A stretch of DNA of 64,000 nucleotides, taken from contig OY743179.1 of assembly GCA_963555705.1 (NCBI GenBank), positions 19,848,692-19,912,691 on the forward strand, in the 5' to 3' direction. The notes under the pieces were generated by a model. The model had not been told where the DNA came from, did not search any database, and saw nothing but the letters and a program-made list of their open reading frames with translations. The translations under genes were made by a program, and so were the position numbers. The first letter of the stretch is position 1. The number at the start of each line of letters is the position of its first letter. The stretch comes from Ligustrum vulgare (lineage: Eukaryota; Streptophyta; Magnoliopsida; Lamiales; Oleaceae). Positions 7,301 through 40,060 of the stretch are shown in pieces.

Positions 7301-10300
7301 AATGAAATATCACTTCAAAAGAAGTCAAGTCTTTCTTCATATTCCCAGTAAACATAAACTGGAACACAAAAATTAGAATTTCACTCCAAAAATTTCTTTC
7401 TTCATCTTTCTCAACGATTTGAAGAATCATTTGCAAGATCAAGAAGAAGTTATTTTCAAGTTATTACACTCCTATATTATCTTACTCTTTAGAATTTTTA
7501 TCTTTTGAAATATGAGTGGTAATTTATGGATGATGATCTATCTAAACCTTTTTGGAAATATGTTATAAAACTTGATAAATCTACTGAAAAGGGTGGCAAA
7601 ATTCTTTGGCAATGCAATTTTTGTAATGCAACTAAGACAAGTTCATACACAAGGGTGAGGGCACATTTGTTAAAATTACAAGGTCATATAATTGGGACTC
7701 GTGGACAAGTAACCATGAAAGATACATGTGAAATGAAAAAAATGGAAGATGGAGCTAAGTTGAGAATGCAAACTAAGGTGGGGAAAAGGGTACCAATGTC
7801 ATCCAATAATATGACTTCTAAGGATTGCTATGTATTGGAGGAAAGGAAAAGAAAAGAAAGAATAGTGCAATAGAAAAAGCTTTTCATATGGTAACACGAG
7901 ACCAATTGGATTGTGAAATTGCTAGAATGTTCTATTCAAGTGGTTTTCCATTTAATCTTGCAAGAATTCCTTATTACCTTAGTTCTTATACTCTTGCTTC
8001 CAATAGCTGAATTTCGAGGTATTTGCCTCCTAGTTATAACAAGTTGAGAAATACTCTTCTTCAAAAAGAGAGAAAAGATGTGGAAAGGTTATTAAATCTA
8101 ATTAAAGGCATGTGGGAGGAAAAAGGAGTGACAATTGTAAGTGATAGCTGGAGTGATCCACAAAGAAAACCACTAATTAATTTTATGGCGGTGACCGAGA
8201 GTGGGCCAATGTTTTTAAAAGCAATTGATTGCTCGGGTGAAATAAAAGATAAATATTTCAATGCTAACTTGATGAAGGAGGACCGATAATGCTCCAAATT
8301 GCAAAGGTGCCGAACAAATAATTGAATTAGAATATCCTCACATTTTTTTTGGACACTGTGTTGTACACACACTAAATCTTGCTTTGAAGAACATTTGTGC
8401 CGCAAAGAATGTTGAAAATAATTTGACTACATACAAGGAATGTAATTGGATTACTAATCTTCATGATGGCGTAATGATTGTAAATTTTTTTATCATGAAC
8501 CACACTACGAGACAAGCGATGTTTAATGAATTTGTACCATTGAAGTTGCTTTATTCAACGTGACCTTCAAGCTTTCGTTATTAGTGATGGATGATCATTT
8601 TATTGAGAAGATGACATGACAAAGGCAAGTTTTGTGAAATTGAAAGTGCTTGATGATCTTTGGTAGGACTCTATAAGTTATGTTCTTTCCTTCACTTCAC
8701 TCATTTATGACATGCTTAGATTTCGTGATACGGATAAAGCTCGACTTCACTTGGTTTATGATATGTGGATGCTATGATTGAGAAAGTGAGGAATAATTTA
8801 TAGGCATGAGAAAAAAGCTCAAGAAGAGGTATCGTCATTTTACAATGTTGCATCGAATACTTGTAGATCATTGGAACAAGAATAACACTCCACTTCATTG
8901 TTTGCCTCATTCTCTAAATCCAAGGTAATTTCTAAATTTTAATTAATTAATTTATTTATTATTTATTTGCATGATCATAATGTTCATAATTTTTAGTTAG
9001 TTATTGAATGAATTGTCATTTCTTTAATTTTTCTCTTATTTAGGTACTATAGCGAGGAATGACTTAGTGAGGATCCCATTTGACTTGCACCACATAGATA
9101 TGTTGAGGTTTCGAGAGAAAGAATAAAATGCTTCAAGTACCCGAAGAACACAATATTGTGAATATGGAGTGTGCTAAATTTTCAACTATGGAAGAGGACT
9201 TTGGTTAGTTGGAATCTATCCATGATCGTTACCACTTGGACCCGAAGACTTGTGGGTTATCTATGTGCTTGCACACCTACGCTTCAATGTTATGCCTTGA
9301 AATTATTGGAGCAACCATCTTCTTCATCTTGTTGTGAGCAAAGTTGGAGTACTCATTCGTTTTTGCATTCTCTTAAACAGAATAAACGGACTCCAAAACA
9401 TGCGGAAGATTTAGTTTTTGTCCATAGCAATCTTCATCTCTTGTCAAGGAGAAGTGCACAATGTTCAAAGGGAGAGACTAAAATGTGTGATATCGGTGAA
9501 GATGCATTTGATACATTTGAAGATGTTAGTGTGCTTGAAGTTGCTAATTTGTCTCTAGATGAATCAGAATTGGAGGCGATAGTATTTGCAAATGATGAAG
9601 ATTTTGTAGAGGTTCAAGATGAATGATGTACTTAATTTTGTTTTTACTTTTTGGAATTTGTGATAATACTTATTAAGAAACGTGTATTACCGTAAGAACT
9701 CGTGTCGAATGTTTTATGAAAAATCACGTGTCGACGTGTCCAATACGTATCGTGTCTGATACTCGTATCTGTGTCGATGCTTCTTAGTAACTAGTTATAT
9801 TTAATAAGACACAAAATATGACATATTACCGTAAGTCTCGCTATATGCGTCGAAGACATAATACCATTAAGCAATTGATCTCAATTGGTGTAAACTTGTG
9901 GATCCACTAAGAAAAAAGTTTACCAAGAGATCAAGTATACTATACATCGAAGGAAATGTGCTTAAAGCCTAATATGTAAGCATATTTGTAATGGTAACTT
10001 TGTACTACCCCTTGTTGGTCCCGAGGGACGGAGGAGGCTAGGTTAACCGAAAGCTGGTTATCAGTTCAAGAACGTAAGGTGCCCCTAACCTTGCTGACTA
10101 GAGATTCCAAAATATTGGTTCAATGGGATAACTAAATTATGAAGATTCAAAACCGTGTGTGAGTATTCTTGTCTTGATTTACACCAACAACTGAACAGTT
10201 CAAAACATCATGTTCACTGATTAAACAAGTAAATTCGATAGTATTTCACTAAGGCGGGTTCAAAGTCAGAAACTATATCTCCTGATGCATAGCTTTCCGC

Positions 10301-14879: not shown

Positions 14880-16134
14880 TTGCTGGATCTTGTATATATT
14901 CTGGATGAGAGATGGTCTCATCTGGCAAAGGTCTCCATTATTCAAGATCGGCACCACTCTCATCTTCAATAATCATGTTGTGTAGAATGATGCATGTTTT
15001 CATTATAATACAAAGATCATCCTTTTTCCACTATCGCGCATGTCCTTTCGTTATTCCCCACCTCATTCGCAACACTCCAAATGCACGTTCGACATCCTTT
15101 CAGATCCTTGTTTTCTAGAAAATAACCTCTCTTTTCCAGTAGTTGGATGTGCAATGGTTTGCATCAAAGTATCCCATTTTGAATATATGCCATCAGACAG
15201 ATAATATCCCAATGTATATTGATATCCATTCACCTCATAGTTGACTCGAGGCATATCATCATGGATCATATCGAGGCATATCATCATGGATCATACTATC
15301 AAATACTAGGGAATGATCCAAATCATTCACGTCATTGTGTGAACCTGGCATACCAAAAATTGCATGTCATATCCATAATTTTTTTGATGCAACTACTTCT
15401 AGTATAAGGGTAGGCTTATGATGACGACCCCTGTGTGTGCCATACCACGCAGTAGGACAATTTTTCCATTCCCAATGCATACAATCTATAGATCCAAGAA
15501 TACCTGGGAACCCTCTTTCATCTCCTTCTTGAAGCAAACATGCAATATCTTGTTCATTTGGTGAGCACATATATTGTTCCTCGTACAATGTAGTTATAGC
15601 CTTACAGAAAAGCTTCATACTAATGATGGCAGTGCTCTCTCCCATCGTTACATACTCATCACATTGATCTGTTGATGCTCCATAAGCAAGTATACGTATT
15701 GCAACAGTCATCTTGTGTATTGAAGAGCATCCAAAACGACCAGTACAATCTTTACGTTGGACAAAATATTGGTCTTCAGCTTCAATATCATTTAAAATGC
15801 GACGGAACAACTCTTTTCGCATTCGGTAGCGTCTGCGAAAATAATCATCTGGATAAGTACTATTATCATCGAAATAATCACTCCATATTTGTTGGTGACC
15901 TCTCTCTCAGTTATGTCCAAAATATCTTCGCTCATTTTGCTGTGACAGAATCGATTGCATAGGTGGAAACAAATTCAGAATCTTTTGAACTCGCTTCCAA
16001 CGACGTCGAGAAATTGTATGCTGATCTTCCTCAGATGAGCTTGATGATGTGGAACTACACTCAGTCATATTAATAGATTGTGCTGATGAAACCATAATTT
16101 TTCTGAAAAATGTATGAAGTTGGAGATGTATCAA
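14880..16134 (-). pseudogene. PIF/Harbinger transposase (HARBI1/ALP1-like), broken
   Basis: The main block (15822-15367) reads RRYRMRKELFRRILNDIE, CSSIHKMTVAIRILAYG, GESTAI and GSIDCMHWEWKNCPTAW, the family hallmark with its first catalytic Asp. Next comes FGMPGSHNDVNDLDHS (near 15360-15310), which contains the second Asp, then YEVNGYQYTLGYYLSDGIYSKW and GKERLFSRKQGSER (15240-15090). An N-terminal serine-rich piece lies at 16134-15907. A 25-bp tandem duplication at 15247-15297 and further frameshifts break the frame between the second Asp and the Glu block. It could have been a source for the Harbinger-type MITEs nearby, but the termini were not matched. Confidence 0.85.
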
Positions 16135-16439
16135 GAGAGAACGAAGTCATTTTTCACAACCAATTTATTATTAAAAAATCAATCTTGCAACAGCAATCTC
16201 GTCTTCCCAATTATATTGAAAATCCCTCGAGACCTGGGAATAACTTTTAGTGTTTCTAAGAAAAACTTATTTAAACAAGTAATAGAAATTATTTTTAAAA
16301 AGTTTATTCTACTATGTTGGGATTTTTTGGCCCCATTCAAACCTCGAGGGCAATGATAATGTACAGTGTCGAATTTTAAGCTTCGTAGGCCCCTCGACTC
16401 ATGATCGATGTATTGTCCAATCTCCACAATTGGCAGCCC

Positions 16440-28555: not shown

Positions 28556-30524
28556 ATGATGTTTTGTGATATGAATTATTCTATTTGAATAATACATTTG
28601 ACAATGAGCTTGACAAAAGCTCTCGCATATCGAGAGTAGACTCACTGTTGTGATGTTTACCCTAATTAAGCATTTGTTTGACAAATTTATTGTAACGCCC
28701 CGAATTCCGTGAAACCTAGGATGCCACTTCATCCTTTAAAATCTGACTTTATTACGGAAAAATAAAGTAAATTCAAATCATCACATTTATTATTTGAAAC
28801 ATTAGCGAAAAACTTAATCAGTTTACAATATAGGACAATTTATAAAACTTGGGTCTCAATTATTTAAATGAAATTAAAGATAAATAATTTAACGAGTAAC
28901 ATTCATAAAATTGTCTAATAACATCATCATTTATTTAATTTTGCCACCCCTGCCTGTTCATTCGCCGCCATCTCCAAAATCTGCAAAAGCTATTAAAATA
29001 ATGGAATGAGTATTTCGAAAAATACTTAGTAGACTCATCGTCAATAATTAATTTACAGAATAATTGAACACGTAATTATGCAATCGTACAGTGACATCAT
29101 CATCATATTCTTGGACTATTTTAATAAAATCAATGGCTCTTTAAAAATCATAGGGTGCGGGTAGTCTCGTCTCGTGCACTTAAGGCACATAAGTTATGCA
29201 TAACATCATCATTTCTCATCTTATCTCATAAGAGATATTCTTGTCTCGTTTCATGCATCAAAGCATGTAAATCACGTAATTTCACATAAAACATGCAATT
29301 ATAATTTAAACTAATTAGTGAGGGCTAGTCTACCTAAAATCACGAGTTTGAAAGTTGAGCAAGAAAGTTCACGTTGTTCTTCTAAATGTCCAAGCGCCTC
29401 TTCTAGCCAATAATAAATAAACCTTAAAGTTGAATTTGAAATTCAAATGTTTTGAAACGAAAGAGTTTTAAAAGAAGAAATAAAAGCTTTAGAAATTAAT
29501 TTGGAAATCAAACAAAGTTGGGATTTGAAAAGAGTTGAGATCAAAACAAATTATTTTGAAAAACTATTGGATCGATTCATGTTCTTTTTTGAAGTCATGG
29601 GGACTAACTCATTTATTTCCAAAAGTGCAATGTTCGAATAAAAACACTTTAAAATCAAAAGATCGAAATAATACTTTTAAAACTAAGGAGGCTGACATAA
29701 AATATTTAAAACATGGGACTAAAGATAAATATTTTAAAACTAAAGGACTGAAATAACTTAATTTAAGAGTAGGGGCTGAAATAAGATATTTTAAACATTG
29801 TAAGGACTGAATTGAATGATTTTGAGACTTGGGGGACTAAAATGATCACTTTTCAAAACTTGGGGCTTAAGGGGTAATTTCCCAAAATCAAAATTCATAA
29901 AAATCAAAAATCCTCTCTCTCTCCCCCATTTACGGGCACAGAGGAGAGGAAGCTAGGGAGTGAGACGGCGATGGGGACAAGCCGCCAGTGCTTTCACCGG
30001 CGTTCGCAGGCGGTGGCGCCGCCTTCGAGGGGCGGCGATGGAGGCGGTGTAGGGCGGAAGAAGAAGGAGATTTGGGCGATTTTGGGTGCGATTTGGGATT
30101 GAATCCGAGGCTTGGGTTCAGATTTGGGGGCGGTGATTTTCAACTAAACTCCGGTCGAAGGTTGAGGTAAGTATTGGGTTTAGATTATTTTCTTGATTTT
30201 GTGGCTGTGTGGGTCGATTTGGTGGTTTTGTAGTAGGTGGTCTGTAGCGACCAAGAATTTTTACGCGATTAATAATTATTTTAAAATCGTGTCGCTACTA
30301 TTTCACCCATTTTTATTAAGTAACGCCGTGACGTATTCGTATAGCCAAGTCAAGAAATAATCGAGATCGTTCGATTTTAAATTAAATTCCGAATTTCTAA
30401 AAATATCTCCATTCTCTTGATTTAAAGTATATTAAGTCCAAGTACTTAATTCAATGTTATCCCAATATTTATTTATACAAAAATTATTTTTATTATTGAA
30501 ATTAAGAAAATATATGCAAGCATG

Positions 30525-30950
30525 AGAGGTTCCATTATATATAATAATTATGAGAATCTTAATTTAATAATATGGAAAAGTATATGAATGAATTATATAC
30601 TCCATTATATATAATCATGAAGAGCATAATAATTGTATAAATATGGAAAAGTATATGAATGATTGATAGACTCCATTATATATAATCATGAAGAGCATAT
30701 TATTTGTATAAATATGGAAAAGTATATGAATGATTGATAAGACTCCATTATATGTAATCATGAAGAGCATAATATTTGTATAAATATGGAAAAGTATATG
30801 AATGATTTATATACTCCATTATATATAATCATGAAGAGCATAATAATGGTATAAATATGGAAAAGTATATGAATGATTGATAGACTCCATTATATATAAT
30901 CATGAAGAGCATATTATTTGTATAAATATGGAAAAGTATATGAATGGTGC
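30525..30950 (+). repeat. 71-bp tandem repeats in the 5' LTR
   Basis: Five to six copies of a 71-72-bp unit with CTCCATTATATATAATCATG and AAATATGGAAAAGTATATGA; copies start at 30600, 30671, 30743, 30814 and 30885. The same block is at about 35473-35898 in the 3' LTR. Confidence 0.92.
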
Positions 30951-31173
30951 TTTACTTTAAGAAAATGATGTGTTAAAATTAATAGAATTGAATGATTATG
31001 TTTACAATATGCCAACTTTATACATCTATTTAAACCCATCTCTTTTACACACAACTCTACACATATACACTTATTTCCAATCTCTTGACAAAATCCACAA
31101 GTAAGAGAAATTCAAGGTGGTCAAGAAAGTTTTGGTCCATTTACTACTACACTTCATTTTAATCTTTTAAAAG

Positions 31174-31940
31174 GTAAGTATATCTTATGTTTTTATGAAA
31201 ATTAAGTATGTTGTTATGAAATGTAAATATACCTTATGTTATGTTTTTATGAAAAGTAAGTATGTTTTTATGACAAGTAAGTATACCTTATGTTTTTATG
31301 AAAAGTAAGTATGTTTTATGACAAGTAAGTATATCTTATGTTTTTATGAAAAGTAAGTATGTTTTTATGAAAGGTAAATACACCTTATGTTTTTATGAAA
31401 AGTAAGTATGTTTTTATGACAAGTAAGTATATCTTATGTTTTTATGAAAAGTAAGTATGTTTTTATGAAAGGTAAATACACCTTATGTTTTTATGAAAAG
31501 TAAGTATGTTTTTATGACAAGTAAGTATATCTTATGTTTTTATGAAAAGTAAGTATGTTTTTATGAAAGGTAAATACACCTTATGTTTTTATGAAAAGTA
31601 AGTATGTTTTTATGACAAGTAAGTATATCTTATGTTTTTATGAAAAGTAAGTATGTTTTTATGAAAGGTAAATACACCTTATGTTTTTATGAAAAGTAAG
31701 TATGTTTTTATGACAAGTAAGTATATCTTATGTTTTTATGAAAAGTAAGTATGTTTTTATGAAAGGTAAATACACCTTATGTTTTTATGAAAAGTAAGTA
31801 TGTTTTTATGACAAGTAAGTATATCTTATGTTTTTATGAAAAGTAAGTATGTTTTTATGAAAGGTAAATACACCTTATGTTTTTATGAAAAGTAAGTATG
31901 TTTTTATGACAAGTAAGTATATCTTATGTTTTTATGAAAA
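31174..31940 (+). repeat. 98-bp higher-order tandem array, 5' LTR copy
   Basis: Each 98-bp unit is two 49-bp halves, and each half holds two 5'-splice-site-like words: GTAAGTAT three times and GTAAATA once per unit. The marker CACCTTATG recurs at 31381, 31479, 31577, 31675, 31773 and 31871 (six). Degenerate units precede it. Confidence 0.95.
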
Positions 31941-32454
31941 TGTTTGGATCATTGCTATGAAATCAATCTCACAAGATTGTTATGGGTTCCATATGATATG
32001 TTTATGATTATGCTAAGGGGACCGGAGTTTAGTAGCGCTACACATAAGAATTCTTGCCATTTAAGTTCGGTAAAATTCTTGTGTCTCCCTATGTTTATGA
32101 GTATTTCGATCCTATCCTATGTTATGATGAAAATGATCCATATGCTTTCAAAAGAAAATTTATGCTTGGTATACTTACTGGGATTTTATAAATCTCACTC
32201 CACGATATTTACCATTTTCAGATAATTGAAGGTTCGAGGCGGTCAACATGGAAGTGGCAAAAGTGGTTAAGATTGATGATATAATTATGTTGAACTTTAT
32301 GTAAGAAAATTATGTTCTATTTTTATTCACAAATTAAATTATGGGATTCTAATTATTCTTTTGAATAATTTTACATTACTATTTAAGTCTCGATAATATG
32401 ATATGAGTCACTTTTAGTGGCACTCGAATGGTCGAGAATTCGGGTCGTCACAGT

Positions 32455-32465
32455 TGGTATCAGAG
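32455..32465 (+). other. Primer binding site (initiator tRNA-Met)
   Basis: TGGTATCAGAG begins three bases after the 5' LTR and is perfectly complementary to the 3' end of plant initiator tRNA-Met. It fixes the element's plus orientation. Confidence 0.92.
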
Positions 32466-32793
32466 ATATTATTATTTTCTCGTAAGGAGAACACACAAGA
32501 GTCACACTGGAAAGAAATACATGAAACACGCAAAAGCAAAAGAAAGCAACATGGGAAATTCCTCAAATTGAGAGATGTGTTTCCGGAGTAGCCGTATCCT
32601 ACCACCTCTGACCTTTTGAGGAAATAAAGAAACCTTCAATGAGGTGTGTTTCGAGAGTAAGAATACTCCGTAATCTACCACCTGGAACCTTTGAGGTACA
32701 CACAAGATTTAAACATTAAGGAAATCCTAGGAAATTAGAGGGGTGTCTCGAGAGTAAGAATACTCCGTACTCTACCCCCACCTATTCTAAGAT
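32466..32793. repeat. Leader with a three-copy imperfect repeat
   Basis: Three degenerate copies of GTGTKTYCGAGAGTAAGAATACTCCG-like sequence, each followed by a CTACCACCT word (near 32575, 32645 and 32738). No gag frame. Confidence 0.6.
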
Positions 32794-33447
32794 TCATAAA
32801 GTTAAGTTTACATTAATCGGACTCCATTTTCGCTTGATTCCCCTTCCTTGCGACCAATCTATCTTAACCCCTGCTGGATCTTGTATTGAGATATATGACT
32901 GCAGCTTATCCAGTAGTTCATCAATAGTAGGAGCAGAAATAAGGAGCCTTCTGGAAAATGGAGAGATGAATCCCTGTTCCACAGCATAATCAAGAAAGGT
33001 TAACAAACCATCAAAGAAATTGTTAACATTCAGAAGCCCAATAGGCTTAGTATGGAGATCTAGTTGAGCCCACGAGGTAATGTTAAAGATTTCTTCTAAG
33101 GTACCAAAACCTCCGGGCAGGGCTATAAAGGCATCAGAACCATATAGCATACAAGTTATGCGTTCATGGATGGATAAGGTTTGAACTTCATGCCCTCGTG
33201 TTTTGCCTGCAACATCTACCAAAGGGACAGGTATGACACCGATTACTTTTGATTTCTCTGCAAGAGCAGATTGGGAAACACAACCCATTAGACCACTGCT
33301 ACCACCCCCATACACAAGAGTGATACCTTTTTCCCCCAGTTTCTTTCCAAGATCTACGGCCGCTTCTAGATAACTGAAGCCTTTCCCCACTTTTGATCCA
33401 CAAAATACACAAATAGTTTTGATCTGTCGAAGTTTTGGTGCTTCCAT
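32794..33447 (-). CDS. LOG-type cytokinin riboside 5'-monophosphate phosphoribohydrolase, intronless, inside LTR element
   Basis: 217 aa, ATG at 33447, uninterrupted. LOG enzymes release free-base, active cytokinins from their riboside monophosphates in the cytosol. Motifs: VFCGS (14-18), VYGGGSSGLMG (45-55), VIGVIP (68-73), the Arg of HERITCM (Arg96) and the hallmark PGGFGTLEE (111-119), followed by TSWAQLDLHTKPIGLLNV. Length is normal for plant LOG (about 215 aa). The usual Lys after the motif Arg (RKA) is Ile here. Plant LOG genes normally have several introns; this one has none, which suggests capture through mRNA. It is antisense to its retrotransposon, 296 bp downstream of the cysteine-rich ORF on the same strand. 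A TTTAAATA box lies about 77 bp above the ATG. The frame is intact while nearly every other element in the window is broken. Confidence 0.93.
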   Translation of the reverse strand: MEAPKLRQIKTICVFCGSKVGKGFSYLEAAVDLGKKLGEKGITLVYGGGSSGLMGCVSQSALAEKSKVIGVIPVPLVDVAGKTRGHEVQTLSIHERITCMLYGSDAFIALPGGFGTLEEIFNITSWAQLDLHTKPIGLLNVNNFFDGLLTFLDYAVEQGFISPFSRRLLISAPTIDELLDKLQSYISIQDPAGVKIDWSQGRGIKRKWSPINVNLTL

Positions 33448-33522
33448 CTTTGATAGTATATAAGAGAAAACTTACGAAGAAGATGTGATTTTGGGATGCC
33501 TGAACTATGAAATATGTTTGGC

Positions 33523-33531
33523 TATTTAAAG
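33523..33531 (-). promoter_or_regulatory. TATA-like box above the LOG ORF
   Basis: The minus strand reads CCGGCTTTAAATAGCC, with TTTAAATA some 77 bp upstream of the ATG. The same word stands above the neighbouring ORF. Function is inferred. Confidence 0.4.
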
Positions 33532-33679
33532 CCGGAAAAATTTACTGTTTTTGATTGATTATGAAAAAGTAAAGATTTACTTTTGACAAAATCGGCCAAC
33601 TTTTGACTGTTTTACCAAAGATATCACCTTTCGGTGATTTATTTCCAGCTTTATCAAAACTCGAGAAAGGAAAATATAT

Positions 33680-33685
33680 TTTATT
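33680..33685 (-). terminator. Possible polyadenylation signal after the cysteine-rich ORF
   Basis: AATAAA on the minus strand about 60 bp past the stop of the 183-aa ORF and before the TATA-like box of the LOG ORF, so the two could be separate transcription units. Confidence 0.35.
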
Positions 33686-33743
33686 TCCAAAACGCGTGAA
33701 AGAAAACAGCAAAATATTTTAAATGTGTATCAAGAGATTTACC

Positions 33744-34295
33744 TTATATCATTGTTGAACTGCCAGAAGCCTCATTTTGTAAAACAGACTGGCAAACAGG
33801 ATCTTTTGCTATTATATTTTGGAGACTATAACGATTTTTGTCCTCGTTAAACTGAGCGTATAAGGAGAGAAGTTCACGTTGCACATAACCACTTGGGTGC
33901 GTCTCAAGAGTCAGTCGAATATCATCCAAAGACTCCTTACTCAGTCCACCCTTTATGAATTTGATTTTATCATCCCGATTAGTAGAAGAATATCCTACTG
34001 TTTTGCAACGAGTATCACAGTTCCAACGAGCACATTTGTAGCAACCATTCAGCCTTTTTGCTCTTCGTTTCTTTGCGAAGGTGCTTTTGCCTAAACCAGG
34101 CATGTGCTTTGGAAAGGTCATAGGTAATTCACCAGATAGTCGAACTTTTGCTTCGATTAACCAGCGAACATCTTCTGGAATATCATGAGCCATCAGCAAC
34201 CTCAATCTTTCGAGCCTTATTCTATAGATCTTTCTCAGATCATTCATAGGAAGATTGGAATAATACTTGCGAATGTTAGAAAGGATGATATCCAT
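33744..34295 (-). CDS. 183-aa basic cysteine-rich protein, viral nucleic-acid-binding-like, inside LTR element
   Basis: ATG at 34295, uninterrupted. The N-terminal third (1-60) is charged and helical-looking, with several Arg-rich stretches. A basic patch (KKRRAKR, 75-81) leads into a C-x2-C-x4-C-x3-C cluster (Cys85, 88, 93, 97), then an acidic/Lys-mixed stretch and a helical C-terminal half. A basic patch just before a compact Cys cluster, and the text around it, resemble the small cysteine-rich nucleic-acid-binding proteins at the 3' end of carlavirus and vitivirus genomes; the rest is longer than those. Some of those viral proteins suppress silencing or act in the nucleus. It could also be an unrelated plant zinc-binding protein. 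A TTTAAATA box lies 35-45 bp above the ATG. Transcribed antisense to the element and followed by the LOG ORF. Similarity is by eye and needs a profile search. Confidence 0.75.
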   Translation of the reverse strand: MDIILSNIRKYYSNLPMNDLRKIYRIRLERLRLLMAHDIPEDVRWLIEAKVRLSGELPMTFPKHMPGLGKSTFAKKRRAKRLNGCYKCARWNCDTRCKTVGYSSTNRDDKIKFIKGGLSKESLDDIRLTLETHPSGYVQRELLSLYAQFNEDKNRYSLQNIIAKDPVCQSVLQNEASGSSTMI

Positions 34296-34329
34296 TGTTT
34301 GATGATTCTAACCTCTTCCCAGCATGAAC

Positions 34330-34340
34330 TATTTAAAAGC
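34330..34340 (-). promoter_or_regulatory. TATA-like box above the cysteine-rich ORF
   Basis: The minus strand reads GCTTTTAAATAGTTC 35-45 bp before the ATG, matching the word above the LOG ORF. Confidence 0.4.
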
Positions 34341-35170
34341 GTAAAGGATATGAGTGAATCCGCGTGATGTTGTGTCCAGCAAGAAAGCGCAGGATTATTT
34401 TAATGAAAAGAGGAGACAAGAAGTAATGCACTGTTAAATTTTATCGATAAAGGAAGATTTGATGATAAGATTTGAGATATGAAATATTTTTCTTGGATTT
34501 TGGGTACTGATATTCTGATATAATAATCAAGGTATAGAAATAATACGGGAATACGTGAAAGAGAAATAAGGACCGTATTGAATCAGAATTCATACGTATA
34601 TACAAGTGAAAGAAATACTTTGCAGGAAATGTGGTGATATTTAAGTAAAGAATCTTAGTTTGGGAGATATTTGTTTACTAAATTTTGGGTTACAAATATT
34701 GGAAAGATAAGTTGATGATATTATGTTGATATGTTATTGGGTATATTACATAGAGAGATTATTCAGGGAATTGTTTTGATTATTTTGAGAATATTCGATG
34801 ATAAGAAGAAAGGAAAAATTATTATGATATGATATATCAGTAAAGATTTGTTGAAATTTTAGAGATATATACTAATATCTGAAGTCACATGATACGATGA
34901 TAAGTGACAAGTTACATGAATACTACAAGATATGATGAAATATCACATACGATTGGGAATTTTCATTTTGATTCAGAAGAATTTATGAGTAGACATATGT
35001 CTATTATTGATAGAAAAGTCCATGTCTTAAGAAAACAAATAGATGCATTTAGTAAAAGTCCAGTGGGTTAGATATTATAATGATGAGATTACTAAGAGAA
35101 AGAAGAGAAGAGATTCTGATTAAGTGTTCAGAAATCATAAGATCAAGTAAGTTTAATTTCGAGGACGAAA
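34341..35170 (+). pseudogene. AT-rich remainder with worn gypsy pol 3' tail
   Basis: 34341-34990 shows no gene. 34995-35150 on the plus strand reads DRKVHVLRKQIDAF and then broken frames, similar to the extreme C-terminus of Ty3/gypsy polyproteins (DRxVRxLRxKxI), where this is expected just before the polypurine tract. Confidence 0.45.
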
Positions 35171-35175
35171 TTATT

Positions 35176-35190
35176 TTAAGGGGGTAAGTT
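35176..35190 (+). other. Polypurine tract of the nested element
   Basis: AAGGGGGTAAG directly before the 3' LTR, preceded by TTTCGAGGACGAAATTATTT, a signature shared with the minus-strand relatives at 38672-38690 and 39020-39050. Confidence 0.8.
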
Positions 35191-37596
35191 TGTAGCGACC
35201 AAGAATTTTTACGCGATTAATAATTATTTTAAAATCGTGTCGCTACTATTTCACCCATTTTTATTAAGTAACGCCGTGACGTATTCGTATAGCCAAGTCA
35301 AGAAATAATCGAGATCGTTCGATTTTAAATTAAATTCCGAATTTCTAAAAATATCTCCATTCTCTTGATTTAAAGTATATTAAGTCCAAGTACTTAATTC
35401 AATGTTATCCCAATATTTATTTATACAAAAATTATTTTTATTATTGAAATTAAGAAAATATATGCAAGCATGAGAGGTTCCATTATATATAATAATTATG
35501 AGAATCTTAATTTAATAATATGGAAAAGTATATGAATGAATTATATACTCCATTATATATAATCATGAAGAGCATAATAATTGTATAAATATGGAAAAGT
35601 ATATGAATGATTGATAGACTCCATTATATATAATCATGAAGAGCATATTATTTGTATAAATATGGAAAAGTATATGAATGATTGATAAGACTCCATTATA
35701 TGTAATCATGAAGAGCATAATATTTGTATAAATATGGAAAAGTATATGAATGATTTATATACTCCATTATATATAATCATGAAGAGCATAATAATGGTAT
35801 AAATATGGAAAAGTATATGAATGATTGATAGACTCCATTATATATAATCATGAAGAGCATATTATTTGTATAAATATGGAAAAGTATATGAATGGTGCTT
35901 TACTTTAAGAAAATGATGTGTTAAAATTAATAGAATTGAATGATTATGTTTACAATATGCCAACTTTATACATCTATTTAAACCCATCTCTTTTACACAC
36001 AACTCTACACATATACACTTATTTCCAATCTCTTGACAAAATCCACAAGTAAGAGAAATTCAAGGTGGTCAAGAAAGTTTTGGTCCATTTACTACTACAC
36101 TTCATTTTAATCTTTTAAAAGGTAAGTATATCTTATGTTTTTATGAAAATTAAGTATGTTGTTATGAAATGTAAATATACCTTATGTTATGTTTTTATGA
36201 AAAGTAAGTATGTTTTTATGACAAGTAAGTATACCTTATGTTTTTATGAAAAGTAAGTATGTTTTATGACAAGTAAGTATATCTTATGTTTTTATGAAAA
36301 GTAAGTATGTTTTTATGAAAGGTAAATACACCTTATGTTTTTATGAAAAGTAAGTATGTTTTTATGACAAGTAAGTATATCTTATGTTTTTATGAAAAGT
36401 AAGTATGTTTTTATGAAAGGTAAATACACCTTATGTTTTTATGAAAAGTAAGTATGTTTTTATGACAAGTAAGTATATCTTATGTTTTTATGAAAAGTAA
36501 GTATGTTTTTATGAAAGGTAAATACACCTTATGTTTTTATGAAAAGTAAGTATGTTTTTATGACAAGTAAGTATATCTTATGTTTTTATGAAAAGTAAGT
36601 ATGTTTTTATGAAAGGTAAATACACCTTATGTTTTTATGAAAAGTAAGTATGTTTTTATGACAAGTAAGTATATCTTATGTTTTTATGAAAAGTAAGTAT
36701 GTTTTTATGAAAGGTAAATACACCTTATGTTTTTATGAAAAGTAAGTATGTTTTTATGACAAGTAAGTATATCTTATGTTTTTATGAAAAGTAAGTATGT
36801 TTTTATGAAAGGTAAATACACCTTATGTTTTTATGAAAAGTAAGTATGTTTTTATGACAAGTAAGTATATCTTATGTTTTTATGAAAAGTAAGTATGTTT
36901 TTATGAAAGGTAAATACACCTTATGTTTTTATGAAAAGTAAGTATGTTTTTATGACAAGTAAGTATATCTTATGTTTTTATGAAAAGTAAGTATGTTTTT
37001 ATGAAAGGTAAATACACCTTATGTTTTTATGAAAAGTAAGTATGTTTTTATGACAAGTAAGTATATCTTATGTTTTTATGAAAATGTTTGGATCATTGCT
37101 ATGAAATCAATCTCACAAGATTGTTATGGGTTCCATATGATATGTTTATGATTATGCTAAGGGGACCGGAGTTTAGTAGCGCTACACATAAGAATTCTTG
37201 CCATTTAAGTTCGGTAAAATTCTTGTGTCTCCCTATGTTTATGAGTATTTCGATCCTATCCTATGTTATGATGAAAATGATCCATATGCTTTCAAAAGAA
37301 AATTTATGCTTGGTATACTTACTGGGATTTTATAAATCTCACTCCACGATATTTACCATTTTCAGATAATTGAAGGTTCGAGGCGGTCAACATGGAAGTG
37401 GCAAAAGTGGTTAAGATTGATGATATAATTATGTTGAACTTTATGTAAGAAAATTATGTTCTATTTTTATTCACAAATTAAATTATGGGATTCTAATTAT
37501 TCTTTTGAATAATTTTACATTACTATTTAAGTCTCGATAATATGATATGAGTCACTTTTAGTGGCACTCGAATGGTCGAGAATTCGGGTCGTCACA
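35191..37596 (+). repeat. 3' LTR of the nested element
   Basis: 2406 bp. Apart from two extra 98-bp units, no difference from the 5' LTR was noticed, which indicates a recent insertion. Confidence 0.93.
36122..37084 (+). repeat. 98-bp higher-order tandem array, 3' LTR copy
   Basis: Same unit as in the 5' LTR but eight CACCTTATG markers (36329, 36427, 36525, 36623, 36721, 36819, 36917 and 37015). Confidence 0.95.
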
Positions 37597-38666
37597 TGGT
37601 CGAAGGTGGGGGATGTGTCGAGTGGTGTGTGTGGTTCTTTTGCTTTCAGTTTGTGAAATTGGAGTGGTGATTCAAGAGGCTCGGGTTTGGTGATGTCAGT
37701 ATTACAGTGATATTGGCCGTGGGTATGAATGTCGATTGGTTTGGCTGCGTGGTGATGTGTTCCGAATTGTGGTAGTGGGCAGGGGCGTTCGTGATGGGTA
37801 GAAGGCAGCGATCATGGAGGTGAGACTGGGTTCGAATGGAGTTGGGCAGCAGCGATGTGGTCTATGAGAAAGAAGATGGGAAGTCAATACCTTGCGATTA
37901 AAATCAGTGAGTGTCGTGAATTGTGATGAGGATGAAGGGGAGTATTTGTATTGATTTTTCTTTAGGTCAGAATCATAGAAAGATGGTGAGATTGGGTGAT
38001 GAACCTGTTGATAGGCTAATTGGCGTGTGAAAGCTGGAGGGAGTATAGTATGCTAATTTACTCAGCTAATTAGGGAAAGAAATAAACATGTCGATCGAAT
38101 TTTGGTTGTTAACTCTGTGTCGTGGGTTGAGGAAATGATGGATTTTTGGAACAGAGAATTTTGCTGTGAATGGAAAGAAGAAACGTGGGGTCTGTTATGT
38201 GAAGGATTTGGGAGAATTTAGCTGGTAAATTATATGCTGGTTATTAAATCAAACTTTGGTAAGTGATGGCAGATTTTGGCTTAGACCAGAATTGTGGGCA
38301 TTTGTAAAGGAGTTGAAGTTGATTGAGAGATTGAAGAGTGATCATGGGAAAGAAGGAAAAAAATGTACTGTATATGGAAATGGAAGTTGGAGAGGAAATT
38401 TTGGGATAAATTGAATGTGAATTGGTGATTTAAAACATTTTGGACTTAAATAATTAAAATTTTGATTAAAATACATAAATAAATAAATAATGAAAATAAG
38501 ATACTTTCATAAAAATTGAAATTGAACTACGATAAATTTAAATAATTTAAATTTTTAACTTAAATGGCTAGACGAAAATGTGTTTAAAATAAATAGGTAA
38601 AGTCGTAGCGATACGTTTTAAATAATATTTATTTAAATAAGTCATGGAAAATTCTTGGTCGCTACA

Positions 38667-39013
38667 ACCCTACCACCTTAAAATAATTTCGTCTTCAAAA
38701 TTTAAAATTTTCTTGATTTAAAATAATTGGATACTTGATCAAATTTTCTTCTTTCTTAAACCAAGTAGTTTCATCACTATCATGTCTACCTCATTGAACT
38801 TTAAATAATGAATGAAACTGGGACAAGTTTAAAGTCGAAATTTGGACTTAAAAGATTTAAACGAATTTAAATTCCTTTTCTTAAAATCTTAAAATAATTA
38901 ATATGACTAGACGAGAGCGCTGATTTTGAATAATAATCGTTGAGGTTGGAGAGTCGTAGCGACAAGTTTGGTAAAACAAGTCTTTTAAGTTTGAAAATTT
39001 CTCGATCGCTACA
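38667..39013 (-). repeat. Tandem internal tail plus a second truncated LTR start
   Basis: 38667-38880 is a pol-tail/polypurine segment, and 39013 down to about 38880 is the start of another LTR of the same family (TGTAGCGATCGAGAAATTTT, CGCTACGACT, CGTCTAGTCAT). A second internal tail (39014-39120) follows. The family's LTR/internal boundary is therefore duplicated here. Confidence 0.6.
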
Positions 39014-39789
39014 ACCTTCTCCACTTAAAATAATTTCGTCCTCGAAATTTTAAACTTTCTTGATCTAAATATATCTGGGTATTAAGCCAGACTTCTTTCT
39101 TCTTTCTTTTCTCAAATAGTTTCAGCACTACATTGTTTACCCCATTGGACTTTGACAAGAGAAACCTCTTTATTAATCTCTACTATTTCTTTAAGAAATC
39201 ATATCACACCATAATAATTAATCATTATGAAGTCTATCCTCATCTTCTAAAACCTCTTATAACGAATAACCCAAAATCAATTGTAACATTAGAAATCACA
39301 TGAATATTCTTCCGTGTAATATGCCTAATAACATGTTATCCACAAATCAGCATAATATCATCAGCTTATCGTATACAAGGATCTATTCATATAGTACATT
39401 TATGCACCATCTTGATTTCTAACATCTTCCCATATACGTCACCAAAACGTACCACAAAATTCAACTAATATTAATAAACAATTTGTTCCCAAGTAACTAA
39501 GATTCTGCTCCCGAATACCACAACATTTTCTGCAAGATATAACTTGGTATTTCCTATGTATACCTCAAATGATCATACAACTCCACATATACATTGATAC
39601 TTAATCGATTGCACACTTCACCAATCAGAATGTTTATAAATAACAATCTCCAGAATTATCAAAACTTTAACTCCAAATCGATACTCTGTTCAAGATTTCA
39701 CTCTTGTAGTATACATGGTTGCATAAGCCACAATGTGAATAAACAACCAATAAATCTCAACCATTTATACTTGAAAAATAATATTTCCT

Positions 39790-40060
39790 CATTGTTCATG
39801 GGTCAACCAAAATTCCCTTTTCAAAATCTCGAAGTGTCTCCAACAAAATCCTCAAATGTTCGTTATATTGTTTACTATCTCTAGGATAAACCAAAATATC
39901 GTCCATGAATACAATGAAAAAAAAATAACATGTCCAATTAATGTTGGAAAACTCGGTTCATCAAATCCATAAATACTGTCGGTTGGTACTTATTCTTTAT
40001 TGCCAACTTGTTAAGTAGTATAGTTACTCCCTATAGAGATACACTTGGCCAAATAAAAAC
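39790..40060 (-). pseudogene. Ty3/gypsy reverse transcriptase remnant
   Basis: The minus strand reads LNKLAIKNKYQP, DLMNRVFQH, FIVFMDDILVYPRDS (the catalytic xMDD at about 39899-39907) and EHLRILLETLRDFEKGILV. These are the correct RT blocks in order, with a deletion between the first two and frameshifts between the others. It belongs to the minus-strand element whose 3' LTR is 28691-38666; RNase H and integrase are missing. Confidence 0.8.

Follow-up and report, generated by a model that had tools for sequence, protein, structure and literature searches.

What are two intact antisense genes, one for a hormone-activating enzyme and one for a protein of viral type, doing in a plant retrotransposon that has lost its own replication genes? 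The question is raised by positions 30243-37596 of a 64,000-nucleotide stretch of Ligustrum vulgare DNA (contig OY743179.1, 19,848,692 to 19,912,691), referred to below as the window. More likely than not, this locus is a recently inserted, non-autonomous Ty3-type element carrying an old antisense accessory module of plant retrotransposons, in which a gene for a nucleic-acid-binding protein (NABP) of the flexivirus type is followed by a gene of the LOG family. The pair is probably an old module because a related NABP lies in the env position of another retrotransposon, because NABP and LOG occur together in Orobanche gene models, and because the window groups with Orobanche in the trees of both proteins.

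Alignment of the long terminal repeats (LTRs) delimits a complete element. There are 0 mismatches over 2,210 aligned columns, the target-site duplication (TSD) TGGTC is present at both flanks, the primer binding site (PBS), which we take to be of the tRNA-Met type, starts two bases past the end of the 5' LTR, and a G-rich polypurine tract (PPT) stands just ahead of the 3' LTR. All the marks of an LTR retrotransposon are thus present, as the original prediction stated. With 0 changes in 2,210 sites, the LTRs have diverged by at most ~0.14% (upper limit at 95%). At a substitution rate of 1.3e-8 changes per site per year, the insertion would be up to about 50,000 years old. The internal 2.7 kb (32453-35190) holds two long open reading frames (ORFs), complete, intronless and both on the minus strand, of 183 and 217 amino acids; there is no other stop-free frame longer than 89 amino acids, short pieces having been left out of the Pfam search. 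The predicted loss of gag-pol is borne out, and since the gag-pol ORF that marks an autonomous LTR retrotransposon is absent, the element is non-autonomous. The 3' LTR is longer by 196 bp, or 4 extra 49-bp units of a tandem array. Both LTRs hold two distinct long arrays, of 71 bp and 49/98 bp, and only the 49-bp array differs between the otherwise identical copies.

The 183-residue protein had been predicted to resemble the nucleic-acid-binding proteins of carlaviruses and vitiviruses, and a profile search was set as the test. It scores above the Pfam cut-offs of two flexivirus NABP families, Viral_NABP (PF05515; 9.9e-9, 35.9 bits, cut-off 23) and Carla_C4 (PF01623; 2.2e-5, 24.8 bits, cut-off 20.9). 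The cysteine pattern and basic patch are as described; in a 52-sequence alignment Cys 85, 88 and 93 are invariant and Cys 97 is conserved in at least 90%, with the basic patch upstream. Database searches returned 343 proteins for NABP (E<=0.01) and 7,226 for LOG (E<=1e-5), so that the matches are not due to chance; the relatives described here are the best 120 of each set. Those of NABP include proteins of Orobanche, Striga, Populus, Xanthoceras and Acer, in clusters reaching 566 member sequences. Among the matches listed, the window NABP is 66% identical to a protein of Orobanche hederae and 82% identical to a protein of another contig, and it resembles the viral families at the profile level only.

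The AlphaFold model of the protein is of low confidence (pLDDT 67.3, pTM 0.32), and the Foldseek list obtained with it consequently gives weak support. None of its 38 matches reached E<=0.001 (best 0.019); ranks 1-15 contain 13 named matches, of which 11 are labelled as NABP, NBP or silencing suppressor. We take all 13 to be proteins of flexiviruses. A sequence search of the PDB gave chance-level matches only (best E 0.24). In flexivirus genomes the gene is expected after that for the coat protein; in the window it sits in an LTR element. Limited scans of IMG/VR, with two short peptide patterns from each of two NABP alignments and one DNA pattern, found no NABP relative, nor did scans of the PLSDB plasmids and INPHARED phages. 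The scan of GTDB yielded a single match, L001.

L001, a contig of 3,330 bp, is the one NABP-bearing contig examined at the DNA level. Its integrase ORF (rve, 2.3e-16) ends at 1594, and ~200 bp past this Ty3-type integrase, with start at 1787 or 1799 and unchanged strand, comes an NABP 65% identical to that of the window. A G-rich tract follows ~250 bp beyond the NABP stop. As read from this arrangement, the NABP of L001 occupies the env position of a Ty3-type element, in sense orientation after the integrase and before the PPT and 3' LTR; the window copy is antisense and has no integrase. From the end of its integrase, L001 is presumably of the Athila type. Comparison of the L001 and window NABPs over 171 codons gave dN 0.25, dS 1.30 and dN/dS 0.19, values indicative of purifying selection between two distant copies. 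In L001 the frame past the NABP stop stays open for 22 codons (2348-2416) and matches the C-terminal extensions of proteins P0032 and P0093 (..FKP.LDVK..EDVSHNHNY..), which may reflect either a formerly longer NABP or a conserved element beyond the stop; the C-terminus of P0093 is LSLSL. The plant-like L001 is filed under a bacterial metagenome-assembled genome (Candidatus Nomurabacteria isolate clean1184), probably as a contaminant.

The 217-residue protein belongs to the LOG family, as predicted (PF03641; 1.3e-33, 116.4 bits, cut-off 27). Among solved structures the best match is Arabidopsis At2g37210 (4.7e-58), which we take to be LOG3. The PGGxGTxxE motif is intact (PGGFGTLEE) and is present in 107 of the 120 relatives. 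These include 38 loci of Reevesia pubescens with 16 different chromosome-style name prefixes, the pattern expected of a mobile family. The window LOG matches P0121 at 92%. In IMG/VR the scan for LOG found a single locus, L002, with 47% identity over residues 8-141, on a contig taken for bacterial or phage.

A feature of these LOG proteins is their C-terminus. A strict L-x-L-x-L ending is found in 93 of the 120 relatives and a looser form in 99, compared with 0.45 strict endings on average after shuffling of the last 30 residues. Each of the 99 loose-motif tails is preceded, within 12 residues, by a basic pair, and 38 of 57 tails are strict when near copies are thinned. In 40 thinned motif-bearing proteins the entropies are 0.17 at positions -5 and -3 and 0 at -1, against 1.95 at -4 and 1.78 at -2. 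The relatives without the loose motif include truncated or rearranged proteins and also apparently complete ones ending in KKRKLDH, KKRRLA or similar. The Arabidopsis LOG sequences used for comparison are, by our naming, AtLOG3 and AtLOG8. AtLOG3 has no such tail, its last residues being ERIGYSSEE; this host control is thin and covers AtLOG3 to its end and AtLOG8 to residue 206 of 216. The tail resembles an EAR motif of the kind that recruits TOPLESS corepressors: LxLxL is one of the two EAR consensus forms (PMC9956375), and a C-terminal LxLxL in the effector HaRxL21 binds TOPLESS (PMC7446885).

Two Orobanche gene models, P0014 and P0018, each hold both domains in the order found in the window, NABP then LOG; if a gene model has wrongly joined two neighbours, NABP and LOG are neighbours still. 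P0014 lacks the catalytic stretch, and both models retain the terminal LxLxL. In P0018, from Orobanche minor, the tail persists beside an altered catalytic stretch, as if it outlives the enzyme. Contigs of identical size in base pairs occur 4 times between the NABP (n=59) and LOG (n=28) lists, with 0.37 expected from a jittered null (P(>=4) 0.0005); this count covers matches on contigs of 1.5-100 kb from the best 120 of each protein and draws on sizes, not on contig sequence. In a tree of 73 of the 120 listed NABP matches with the window and L001, the window NABP groups with eight proteins, four of them from Orobanchaceae (clade of 9, SH-aLRT 98). The LOG tree has 122 rows. To 116 listed relatives were added the window LOG, that of P0018, two sequences from Arabidopsis and two from bacteria; P0122, P0123, P0132 and P0166 were left out as outside 195-235 residues. 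It is a quick tree, midpoint-rooted, with SH-aLRT support only and thin host sampling. Here a clade of 7 (SH-aLRT 99) unites the window LOG with the LOG part from Orobanche minor, a protein of Diospyros and four others. One branch (SH-aLRT 93) separates AtLOG3, AtLOG8, the two bacterial LOGs and three Xanthoceras rows (P0212, P0237, P0238) from all the rest, namely the window, the Orobanche LOG and 113 of the 116 listed rows.

The module stands antisense between the leader and a pol remnant (Table 1). A minus-strand relic at 38584-39535 is collinear (73-75%) with the LTR start and with the remnant's three blocks, at 34620-34681, 34706-34765 and 35049-35186, and the element therefore belongs to the LTR family of this adjoining, probably Ty3-type relic. 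The relic's further interior contains a fragment that matches RVT_1 weakly (5.2e-4, 20.2 bits, under the Pfam cut-off of 29.6), while the element itself has no reverse transcriptase. The relic as a whole (38584-39960) shows two copies of the tail/PPT block ~350 bp apart and the same LTR start as the studied element. The TATA-like box TTTAAATAG precedes both ATGs, a hint that each gene may have a separate promoter; it occurs 7 times in the window, with 2.97 expected, two occurrences being the copies in the paired LTRs.

Table 1. Coordinates in the window of the element, its two antisense genes and the neighbouring relic.
Feature	Position	Strand
TSD TGGTC, left copy	30238..30242	
5' LTR (TGTAGCGACC...GTCGTCACA), with 71-bp and 49-bp tandem arrays	30243..32452	+
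Primer binding site TGGTATCAGAG	32455..32465	+
5' leader, imperfect repeats spaced 76-97 bp (families D3, D6)	32466..32790	+
LOG-family ORF of 217 aa with intact PGGFGTLEE and the C-terminal tail KRKWSPINVNLTL	32794..33447	-
TATA-like TTTAAATAG, 75 bp ahead of LOG ATG	33522..33530	-
NABP ORF, 183 aa, basic patch KKRRAKR, C-x2-C-x4-C-x3-C	33744..34295	-
TATA-like TTTAAATAG, 34 bp ahead of NABP ATG	34329..34337	-
Backbone remnant, probably Ty3-type, in three blocks that are collinear with the relic next to it; in-frame FEDEIILRG tail at its end	34620..35186	+
Polypurine tract region AAGGGGGTAAG	35178..35188	+
3' LTR	35191..37596	+
TSD TGGTC, right copy	37597..37601	
Related decayed element, probably Ty3-type, with LTR start, tail/PPT block in two copies and a fragment of reverse transcriptase	38584..39960 (right end approximate)	-

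Elsewhere in the window, broken ORFs judged by eye resemble a PIF/Harbinger-type transposase (15066-16146, minus) and a BED-finger hAT-type transposase (7523-9626, plus).

Several observations weigh against an old module retained by this element. The element is known from a single copy, which limits the case for retention of the pair in its backbone. L001 has no LOG ORF after its NABP, and its integrase, searched against the window, found no match; hence no trace of an Athila-type donor is left there. The dN/dS covers NABP only and was obtained at a dS (1.30) close to saturation. The LOG parts of the Orobanche models are partial, with the catalytic stretch of P0018 altered to LPGGYDTLNE; the Orobanche LOG row is long-branched and was flagged by the tree program as unsurely placed, and another Orobanche NABP, P0120, is placed elsewhere in the NABP tree. 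As to the tail, 21 of the 120 LOG relatives are without even the loose motif, and the window LOG itself ends in INVNLTL (VxLxL), one residue off the strict L-x-L-x-L of the EAR motif. LxLxL is also insufficient by itself according to PMC7446885, and the TOPLESS link proposed here is motif-based.

A rival account is that of a simple passenger, a module swept recently into a non-autonomous element to no benefit, its ORFs intact only through the youth of the insertion. With identical LTRs, ORF intactness is uninformative on selection since insertion, and the single copy and the degenerate tail of the window LOG point the same way. We regard this account as rather unlikely, however, since NABP and LOG are the only long coding frames left though gag-pol is gone, and each has a TATA-like box upstream. 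The NABP constraint between distant copies and the strong conservation of the LOG tail also oppose it, although both hold for the families and not for the element itself. An antisense module acting mainly as RNA, to regulate the element's sense RNA with the proteins secondary, has a precedent in the antisense ORF of maize Grande, which has its own promoter and for which a double-stranded RNA role was proposed (PMC7264820). Constraint at the codon level in NABP and at the residue level in the LOG tail indicates proteins, and we consider an RNA role very improbable.

The original prediction held that the element had freshly captured a host LOG mRNA and an RNA-virus gene. Both ORFs are indeed intronless and intact, and flexivirus NABP profiles do match. 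Relatives of both genes are, however, multi-copy in several eudicots, form matching clades with the window, and stand together in two Orobanche models; the NABP has the env position in L001, its close identities (66% and 82%, as above) are to an Orobanche hederae protein and to a protein of another contig while the viral families are reached by profile only, and the LOG tree, with its thin host sampling, sets the window's group apart from AtLOG3 and AtLOG8. A double capture by this element is thus hardly credible. An integrated RNA-virus fragment was dropped as an explanation of the pair, since in L001 the NABP adjoins an integrase and we know of no virus in which LOG lies beside NABP.

If the locus is, as we favour, a young element with an old module, the following may be envisaged. 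The env-position module would have reached its present backbone by template switching between co-packaged RNAs, or by insertion. Gag-pol supplied in trans would move the element, each of the two genes would be driven by its own promoter, and both proteins would act in the nucleus. Like viral NABPs, which can be silencing suppressors and of which that of chrysanthemum virus B is a transcription factor inducing hyperplasia (PMC12172455), the NABP would bind nucleic acid and blunt silencing or reprogram transcription. The LOG would release active cytokinin, recruit TOPLESS-type corepressors through its tail, or both. Cells kept dividing or permissive by the pair would let copies of the element enter more descendant cells. 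A bolder reading, which we put forward as a speculation with the odds against it, is of an effector-like Ty3 module: a flexivirus-type nuclear NABP would be joined by a LOG that had acquired both a basic patch of nuclear type and a TOPLESS-recruiting EAR tail, the element would thereby link the activation of cytokinin with the hijack of corepressors, and the gene for NABP would have been exchanged between retrotransposons and RNA viruses, in either direction.

The extra ORFs of plant retrotransposons mostly have no assignable function. Here two named families apparently travel together, one shared with RNA viruses, the other an enzyme that activates a hormone and bears a conserved tail of repression type. 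On the proposed action of the pair, a parasite of the genome would interfere with silencing and with the growth signals of the plant in the manner of pathogen effectors, and retrotransposon copies could be used to address where viral NABPs came from. What appears new, and would surprise a specialist, is the NABP-LOG partnership and the basic patch and conserved LxLxL C-terminus on retrotransposon-type LOGs.

Steinbauerova et al. in 2011 reportedly described two Athila-like elements with similarity to LOGL4. A YgdH/LOG-type domain in Ty3/gypsy LTR elements of Citrus and poplar is in print, in line with Steinbauerova 2011 as cited there (PMC9289625), and to that extent the suggestion that such a capture was undescribed does not stand. 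The NABP partner and the LOG tail are another matter: neither is described in the sections consulted of that account, and searches of open-licence papers by title and opening of abstract, which are no proof of absence, found no account of NABP in plant retrotransposons, of an NABP-LOG pair or of an EAR-tailed LOG. In a paper on Retand elements (PMC11963269), 'carlavirus', 'nucleic acid-binding' and 'cytokinin' have 0 occurrences, as has 'EAR' in one on LOG evolution (PMC11593424).

The Citrus and poplar elements share with the window a LOG-family protein aboard a plant Ty3 element; the window LOG differs in being antisense, beside a flexivirus-type NABP and without gag-pol. In the aORF-3R group (maize Grande gene23, RIRE2, Retand, PvRetro13; PMC7264820) there is likewise an antisense ORF between backbone and LTR, with a likely promoter of its own and a suspected nuclear role, but those proteins are reported to be without clear database similarity, whereas the window has two genes, both of named families. 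Carlavirus and vitivirus NABPs are matched by profile above cut-off and by the basic patch and cysteine cluster; the window NABP, of 183 residues, is borne by a plant genome with no viral genome around it. With the plant LOGs AtLOG3 and AtLOG8 the window LOG shares the fold family and PGGxGTxxE, while AtLOG3 has no tail and the tree sets both outside. The EAR effectors HaRxL21 (PMC7446885) and Jsi1 (PMC8126959) have an LxLxL that would contact TOPLESS and reprogram hormone or defence responses; the window case, by contrast, is a retrotransposon protein with an enzyme body, for which a TOPLESS contact is a prediction. Ty3 elements of orchids carry another enzyme, an RNA demethylase, for which activity in vitro was demonstrated (PMC9289625), and are like the window element in that a Ty3 element keeps an extra regulatory enzyme, in their case of a kind also found in flexiviruses.

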